From assembly GCA_030601425.1 (NCBI GenBank), contig JAUVTR010000005.1:1-32831 (forward strand): DNA of 32,831 nucleotides. Reading direction: 5' to 3'. A model generated the notes under the pieces. It did not search any database. It saw only the letters and a program-made list of their open reading frames with translations, and was not told the DNA's origin. Numbering within the stretch: position 1 is the stretch's first letter; each line of letters begins with the position of its first letter. Source of the stretch: Desulfobacterales bacterium. GTDB taxonomy: Bacteria; Desulfobacterota; Desulfobacteria; Desulfobacterales; JAHEIW01. A program made the translations under genes and the position numbers. Of the stretch, positions 18,978 through 20,534 are shown piece after piece.

Positions 18978-19574
18978 ATGGAAAAATTTAGCATCTTATT
19001 AGTAGATGATGATCCGTATATTCTTGAAGGTATTGGAGCGGATCTTGAAAGCCAGGATTTTCACGTGACCAAAACCAATAGTGGAGATACGGCGCTGGAA
19101 CTGCTGCAGGAAAACAGTTTTGATCTGGTGATTACAGACCTGGTAATGGAAGATACCGATGGGATTCAGGTTTTGAAAAACACCAAGGAATTAAATCCTG
19201 ACACCATGGTCATTATCCTTACCGGCTATGGCGATATGAAATCCGCCATTGAAGCGTTACGGCAAGAAGCTGACGATTTTTTACTTAAACCCTGTGAATC
19301 CGCAGAGATGCTTTACCGCGTTAATCGCTGCCTGGAAAAAAGGGAGCTTGCACGCAAGATTAAAATTTACCAGAACATTCTTCCGATGTGCTGCGTATGT
19401 AAAAAAATCAGGGATGACCGTCACAAGGAGCCCGGCAAGGGAGAATGGGTTTCGATTGAGCAATTTATTCATGAAAAAGCTAAACTGGATATCACATCCA
19501 GTTACTGCCCGGAATGCGCCCAGGAGACCATGGATGCGTTCTCTAATAAAAAGGCGACCCGAACTACAAAATAG
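18978..19574 (+). CDS. Response regulator (REC) with C-terminal Cys-rich module
   Basis: 198 aa; LLVDDDPYILEGI, DLVITDLVMEDTDG, then CCVCKKIRDD...YCPEC. Confidence 0.9.
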   Translation: MEKFSILLVDDDPYILEGIGADLESQDFHVTKTNSGDTALELLQENSFDLVITDLVMEDTDGIQVLKNTKELNPDTMVIILTGYGDMKSAIEALRQEADDFLLKPCESAEMLYRVNRCLEKRELARKIKIYQNILPMCCVCKKIRDDRHKEPGKGEWVSIEQFIHEKAKLDITSSYCPECAQETMDAFSNKKATRTTK

Positions 19575-19673
19575 ACAACGCGTTCCCAAACGCTCTCAAG
19601 GTGTAATGGAAAGTTTGTCGTTCTTATGGCCCGGCCCGCATACCCGCGAGCACGCACCTATTTGGAGGTGAAG

Positions 19674-20534
19674 GTGAAAATGAAATCTAAATTCTGGAAA
19701 GCATTCCTGTTATTATCGATTTGGATGGTACCGGTTCCTCTTGGTTTTGCAACTGTTGACTGGGAGATCCTGAATACGTTGCAACTTGAGGCTCCTCCCC
19801 TGGATGTGGCCATCTCGCCCGATGGCAAAACTGTATATGTACTTAACAATAAAGGTGTCATACTCGTTTACGCTTTAGACGGCAATCTCACCGATAAAAT
19901 TGAAGTCGGCAAACAGATTGATCAGATTAAACTGGGTCCCAAGGGAGAGCGTCTGTTTGCAACCAGTCGACAGAGCAAAACTGTTGAAGTCATCGCCCTT
20001 GATTTTATTCAAGAACTATCCATCAAAGGATCGCCTTACAAAGGCCTCAAAGATGCACCAGTTGTTATTGCGGATTTCAGCGATTTTGAATGACGATACT
20101 GCGCGAGGCTTGTGCCTCTACTCGATCAGGTGCTCGAGAAAAATCCCCAAACGGTCAAAATTGTGTTTAAAAACTTCCCGATTCGCAGCCATAAGTTCGC
20201 CTTTAAGGCAGCCGTGGCAGCCCTCGCTGCCGATCGTCAGGGAAAATTTTGGGAATTTCATGATGAATTGTTTAAAAATCATAAAAATCTTAATGAAAAA
20301 AAAATCGAAGAAATTGCTTCACAACTCAAATTAAATAAAGCAAAATTCGAAAAAGATCGGGAAGATCCCCTGCTACTCGAAAAAGTGAAGCATGATTTCA
20401 ATGAAGGCATTAAAGCGGGCGTAAATGCGGTGCCGATGGTTTTCGTCAATGGGAGAAAACTAAAAAAAAGAAGCCTGCAAGGATTTCAGGAGCTGATAGA
20501 TAAAGAATTAAACACCCTTAAAATAAAAAAATAA
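19674..20534 (+). CDS. Putative selenoprotein: signal peptide, short beta-propeller-like segment, DsbA-like thioredoxin domain with UxxC (Sec encoded by TGA 20091-20093)
   Basis: ORFs 19626..20093 and 20112..20534 share a frame (offset 486 = 162 codons). Joined reading: VVIADFSDFE-[TGA]-RYCARLVPLLDQVLEKNPQTVKIVFKNFPIRSHKFAFKAAVAALAADRQGKFWEFHDELFKN. GTG 19674 (or ATG 19680) lies downstream of GGAGG at 19664. Confidence 0.85.
20091..20128 (+). promoter_or_regulatory. Candidate bacterial SECIS element directly 3' of the in-frame UGA
   Basis: GAGGC (20105-20109), loop UUGU (20110-20113), GCCUC (20114-20118); outer pairing UGACGA (20091-20096) with UCG-A-UCA (20122-20128). Loop contains G and starts 16 nt after the UGA. 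Confidence 0.7.

Follow-up and report, generated by a model that had tools for sequence, protein, structure and literature searches.

The locus of interest lies in a window of 32,831 nucleotides, by which we mean the whole stretch of DNA analysed here, and consists of a 284-residue candidate selenoprotein gene whose sole in-frame stop is a TGA at 20091-20093, followed by an intact open frame of 146 codons. When the whole 32.8 kb was searched for pairs of open frames (≥90 and ≥70 residues) split by a TGA only, this gene was the one pair recovered. An earlier note had already read positions 19674-20534 as a single TGA-split frame, which holds; as its start, ATG 19680 is preferable to 19674, because a GGAGGTG motif lies about 9 nt upstream of the former. 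The peptide that it gave around the TGA (DFSDFE-U-RYCARLVPLLDQ) is likewise correct, whereas it overlooked both the SECIS hairpin and the beta-propeller blades at the N-terminus. The readthrough product begins with a putative signal peptide, continues with beta strands over about 70 residues and ends in a DsbA-like domain, whose active-site motif is U138-R-Y-C141. The features are as follows:

19664-19670, + strand: Shine-Dalgarno-like GGAGGTG, read from the sequence
19680-20534, + strand: candidate selenoprotein gene, ATG to TAA (20532-20534), 284 residues with predicted Sec138; full-length homologues have about the same starts and stops
19680-19757, + strand: putative signal peptide MKSKFWKAFLLLSIWMVPVPLGFA, without a lipobox Cys, read from the sequence; the N-terminus is hydrophobic across the family alignment (A3)
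19788-19997, + strand: two beta-propeller blades, seven strands, residues ~37-106 (sequence match to the YVTN propeller 1l0q, AF2, Foldseek)
20028-20531, + strand: DsbA/Thioredoxin_4 catalytic domain with U138xxC141 and invariant Pro252 at the cis-Pro position (Pfam, alignment, AF2, Foldseek)
20091-20093, + strand: TGA predicted to be read as selenocysteine, first active-site residue (frame, homologue alignment, tree)
20121-20138, + strand: candidate bacterial SECIS hairpin, with 5' arm 20121-20127, loop AGGU 20128-20131 and 3' arm 20132-20138; one U-C mismatch in the window copy

Both Pfam matches of the catalytic domain, Thioredoxin_4 (8e-24, residues 119-277) and DSBA (4.7e-15, residues 132-263, both numbered from 19674), cross the UGA and align it with the first active-site Cys of the DsbA family, in agreement with the earlier reading of this TGA. 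The full protein is predicted by AF2 with a pLDDT of 92.8 and a pTM of 0.79, and its catalytic domain has 3gyk, BdbD, Corynebacterium DsbA/TsdA, ScsC and alpha-DsbA2 as Foldseek neighbours. The protein thus displays the hallmarks of the DsbA superfamily (PF01323/PF13462), namely a thioredoxin fold with a helical insertion, a [UC]xxC motif and a cis-Pro position, the last assigned by alignment and not by geometry.

A first scan of 84,980 species genomes retrieved 43 loci with the full-length or near-full-length family, together with shorter Cys-containing DsbA relatives. The UGA column of these 43 loci holds TGA in 36 and TGC or TGT in 7; one extra locus (L064) is unreadable at this column on account of a frame break. 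The Cys-containing homologues align their Cys with the TGA across both fragments, a check that had been proposed with the original observation. Further TGA and Cys members are contributed by same-order and same-genus genomes in a second scan, and a strong match is present in 43 of 296 genomes spread over the phylum, Cys being commoner among them than TGA. The family also occurs in the Candidatus Magnetocorallium phylum (Nitrospirota in the record's taxonomy), in 7 of 198 genomes, six of them with UGA; in one genome of this phylum, two near-identical UGA-bearing gene copies lie about 3 kb apart (L118:1135 and L118:4315). Protein identity is ~37-57% over dozens of UGA-bearing genomes, with both halves conserved and with C141 and P252 invariant in the alignment. 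The active-site motif is URYC in the window protein and UPYC or UPHC in most relatives, with UKYC in a genus mate (L091) and UQYC in L092. One member (L111) has an in-frame TAG in its signal-peptide region, some 350 bases before the UGA at 1894. Pyrrolysine was rejected as an explanation, PylS being absent above the cut-off from the genomes of both L111 and the window, and the TAG is likely an assembly error, a mutation or the sign of a different start.

In a tree of 64 proteins, the 46 U and 14 C rows are intermingled and well-supported branches force at least 9-10 changes; U and C therefore appear to substitute for each other at the active site. Such a pattern of repeated exchange between predicted Sec and Cys rules out error and decay. 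Independent assemblies, including the chromosome-level CP070746, CP070694 and CP070689, carry the TGA together with the hairpin, so that a sequencing or assembly error for TGC, TGT or TGG is scarcely credible, even in a genome as fragmented as this draft of 282 contigs. Decay of the gene, in which the UGA would be a nonsense mutation leaving fragments only, could draw on the slightly damaged hairpin of the window copy and on the otherwise rare R that follows its UGA. This reading is very improbable and already contradicted by the presence of the same UGA in dozens of divergent genomes, by the conservation of both halves and by the open frame that remains intact downstream.

The window's genome, 79.7% complete, encodes the selenocysteine machinery that the earlier note had named as a check: a tRNA-Sec with anticodon TCA was found together with SelA (622 bits), SelB (375 bits) and SelD (368 bits), the Sel proteins all scoring over their cut-offs. 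Its SelD (L016) has an in-frame TGA of its own. On the minus strand of another contig of this genome (G000:C101:1492-1770, L119), an OmpA-like/DUF1573 protein also has an in-frame TGA, in the context KTD-U-GCTAVSYTR, and is likely a further selenoprotein. These in-frame TGA codons in SelD, DUF1573 and the candidate gene are what could be expected if this organism had a reassigned code in which TGA generally stands for an amino acid; yet a single TGA-split pair in 32.8 kb, the Sec-type position of each TGA and the complete Sec machinery leave that explanation with next to no probability. Among the genomes with homologues, tRNA-Sec exceeds the curated cut-off in 35 of 42 and SelB in 31 of 42, Cys-bearing genomes included, and several of the remainder are fragmented drafts. 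Presence or absence of the machinery was rejected as a predictor of U versus C: it is uninformative, tRNA-Sec being found also in Cys-bearing genomes.

A candidate SECIS hairpin is shared by the UGA-bearing genes. With columns numbered from the UGA, 31-37 pair with 42-48 and surround a loop, AGGU or AGUU, at a distance of 34 nt downstream of the UGA. Over 48 UGA-bearing sequences, pairing is found in 97.0% of cells, with two-sided changes in four of the seven pairs and a covariation score of 0.250; shuffled controls score 0.123 and slid ones no more than 0.072. Because the hairpin region is coding, synonymous codon resampling was used as a further control: 6.79 of 7 pairs were seen against 4.17 +/- 0.14 expected, and the pairing goes far beyond protein-sequence constraint alone. 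The published model for bacterial SECIS elements sets their distance from the UGA at 16-37 nt and requires a G within the first two positions of the loop (PMC13188914); both the loop and the spacing of the family agree with it. Both gene copies read from one Magnetocorallium-phylum genome have the hairpin.

The window copy forms six of the seven pairs, the second one counted from the loop being the U-C mismatch, and follows the published loop rule only if this one mismatch is allowed; taken alone, its stability is not unusual (z -1.1), and a scan of the window against Rfam at gathering scores gave no match. The mismatch seems to be tolerated, since this pair is also mismatched in L092, as A-C, and the window hairpin might be less efficient. 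Another hairpin closer to the UGA, GAGGC-UUGU-GCCUC (20105-20118), is stable in the window and was rejected as the SECIS because its register shifts among relatives and it is absent from the consensus fold. Among the Cys genes, the seven rows from the first scan have only 63% of hairpin cells paired. One of these seven, L046 (L046:4406-4459), keeps a fully paired hairpin beside its TGC, and a Cys (TGC) gene of the second scan (L098:1894-1947) retains one as well; by their sequence, these hairpins are apparent fossils of a Sec-encoding ancestor. Together with the Sec-Cys exchange, such fossil hairpins make this family well suited to asking why some genes keep selenocysteine and others lose it.

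Computation establishes, at the level of sequence, the gene, the conservation of its UGA, the SECIS element, the machinery and the fold. The apparently stop-broken gene is almost certainly intact and codes for an exported DsbA-like selenocysteine protein, and we put at about 0.95 the probability that 19680-20534 is a selenoprotein gene whose UGA directs Sec incorporation. This would add a widespread full-length selenoprotein family, found in Desulfobacterota and also in Nitrospirota, whose gene a gene caller would split in two.

Gene neighbours vary by lineage: pyrG is convergent in the window's family, and PhoH and YbeY-PdxJ lie downstream in Desulfocapsa-type genomes. Operon partners were consequently rejected as a clue to the pathway, as none of them fixes the redox direction. 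Directly upstream in the window and on the same strand (18978-19574) is a response regulator with two CxxC pairs in its C-terminal part (CCVCKKIRD ... YCPECA), and a response regulator with CxxC pairs also adjoins the selenoprotein gene in L023. In four relatives, the gene directly upstream encodes a DUF1573 protein that likewise has an in-frame TGA, in the context SGG-U-GC (L021:1047-1049, L022:946-948, L025:2842-2844 and L031:1141-1143). The DUF1573 family is already listed as the selenoprotein OS_HP2 (PMC2398784). The DUF1573 and DsbA-like genes would be two candidate selenoprotein genes in tandem, and their products are possibly redox partners.

In the proposed mechanism, ribosomes, helped by SelB, Sec-tRNA(UCA) and the hairpin that follows 34 nt later, would decode UGA 20091 as selenocysteine. 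The product is probably exported, and the mature protein would reside in the periplasm, where the C-terminal DsbA-like domain, with its Sec138-Cys141 pair and cis-Pro loop, would swap disulfides with client proteins, Sec138 attacking and Cys141 resolving. The most likely function is that of a periplasmic thiol-disulfide reductase/isomerase, and we regard this catalytic direction, rather than oxidation, as reasonably probable. Action as a thiol oxidase (DsbA proper) is a less probable but serious alternative: oxidases, BdbD for one, are among the best structural matches beside isomerases, and the catalytic domains of the two kinds are similar. Arguing against an oxidase, no quinone-linked VKOR partner was found in the window's genome, which is incomplete (~80%). 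Selenocysteine, moreover, favours a low redox potential. Oligomeric isomerases like ScsC, too, typically have an extra domain at the N-terminus (PMC5524982, PMC8900818).

The N-terminal ~70 residues form two predicted beta-propeller blades conserved throughout the family. Modelled alone, this domain reaches a pLDDT of 93 with AF2, and its Foldseek neighbours are beta-propellers, including the YVTN S-layer protein 1l0q and 6r5x, an eight-bladed propeller of four two-bladed fragments. The half propeller would most likely serve for oligomerisation or docking. A propeller cannot be closed by two blades, and a designed fragment of two blades forms trimers (PMC7734218), which makes oligomerisation a reasonable guess, albeit a tentative one. 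The blades of three or four chains could conceivably close into a six- or eight-bladed propeller ringed by several selenocysteine DsbA domains; if this rather speculative assembly were true, the closed multi-chain propeller would be a selenium-based oligomeric disulfide isomerase of new architecture. The half-propeller front end thereby gives a directly testable idea of how the enzyme assembles.

DsbA-like and DsbG-like UxxC selenoproteins are, as had been pointed out in the earlier note, a class described in reviews (PMC13188914, PMC9312934, PMC1794560). The DsbA-like selenoprotein of Zhang and Gladyshev (PF01323, UxxC) shares with the present family the DsbA domain, the UxxC motif, a UGA at the first active-site Cys and an occurrence in Deltaproteobacteria (PMC1794560, PMC2398784, PMC13188914); no propeller is mentioned in these three papers, and the two are set apart by descriptions, not by sequences. 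None of the curated models searched names the family. The nearest, NF041057 (Rcas_1661 family thioredoxin-like (seleno)lipoprotein), appears as DsbG-like in PMC13188914, has a homologous catalytic domain with UxxC and matches all 42 family members; the window protein, however, scores 73 bits against a cut-off of 190, is matched only over profile positions 78-246 and differs in its N-terminal part, where the lipoprotein signal is absent, the region having no Cys as read from the sequence. Our literature search, whose coverage stopped short of the Olavius delta-1 selenoproteome, found no paper in which selenocysteine and DsbA are combined with a propeller. Since an Olavius-associated bacterium is among the family members (L030), it is quite possible that the gene has been seen before, though not its architecture. 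UxxC DsbA/DsbG-like selenoproteins are thus already known, and their fusion with a half propeller is a new architecture as far as we have found. ScsC and alpha-DsbA2, which are trimeric DsbA-like isomerases (PMC5524982, PMC8900818, PMC6450060), also join a DsbA-like catalytic domain to an N-terminal part, theirs serving oligomerisation; their N-terminal parts are not propellers and their nucleophile is Cys, whereas an oligomer of the present family is putative. The N-terminal blades resemble in sequence and fold the YVTN beta-propeller of the archaeal S-layer protein 1l0q, which is a full propeller, whereas the window protein has two blades.
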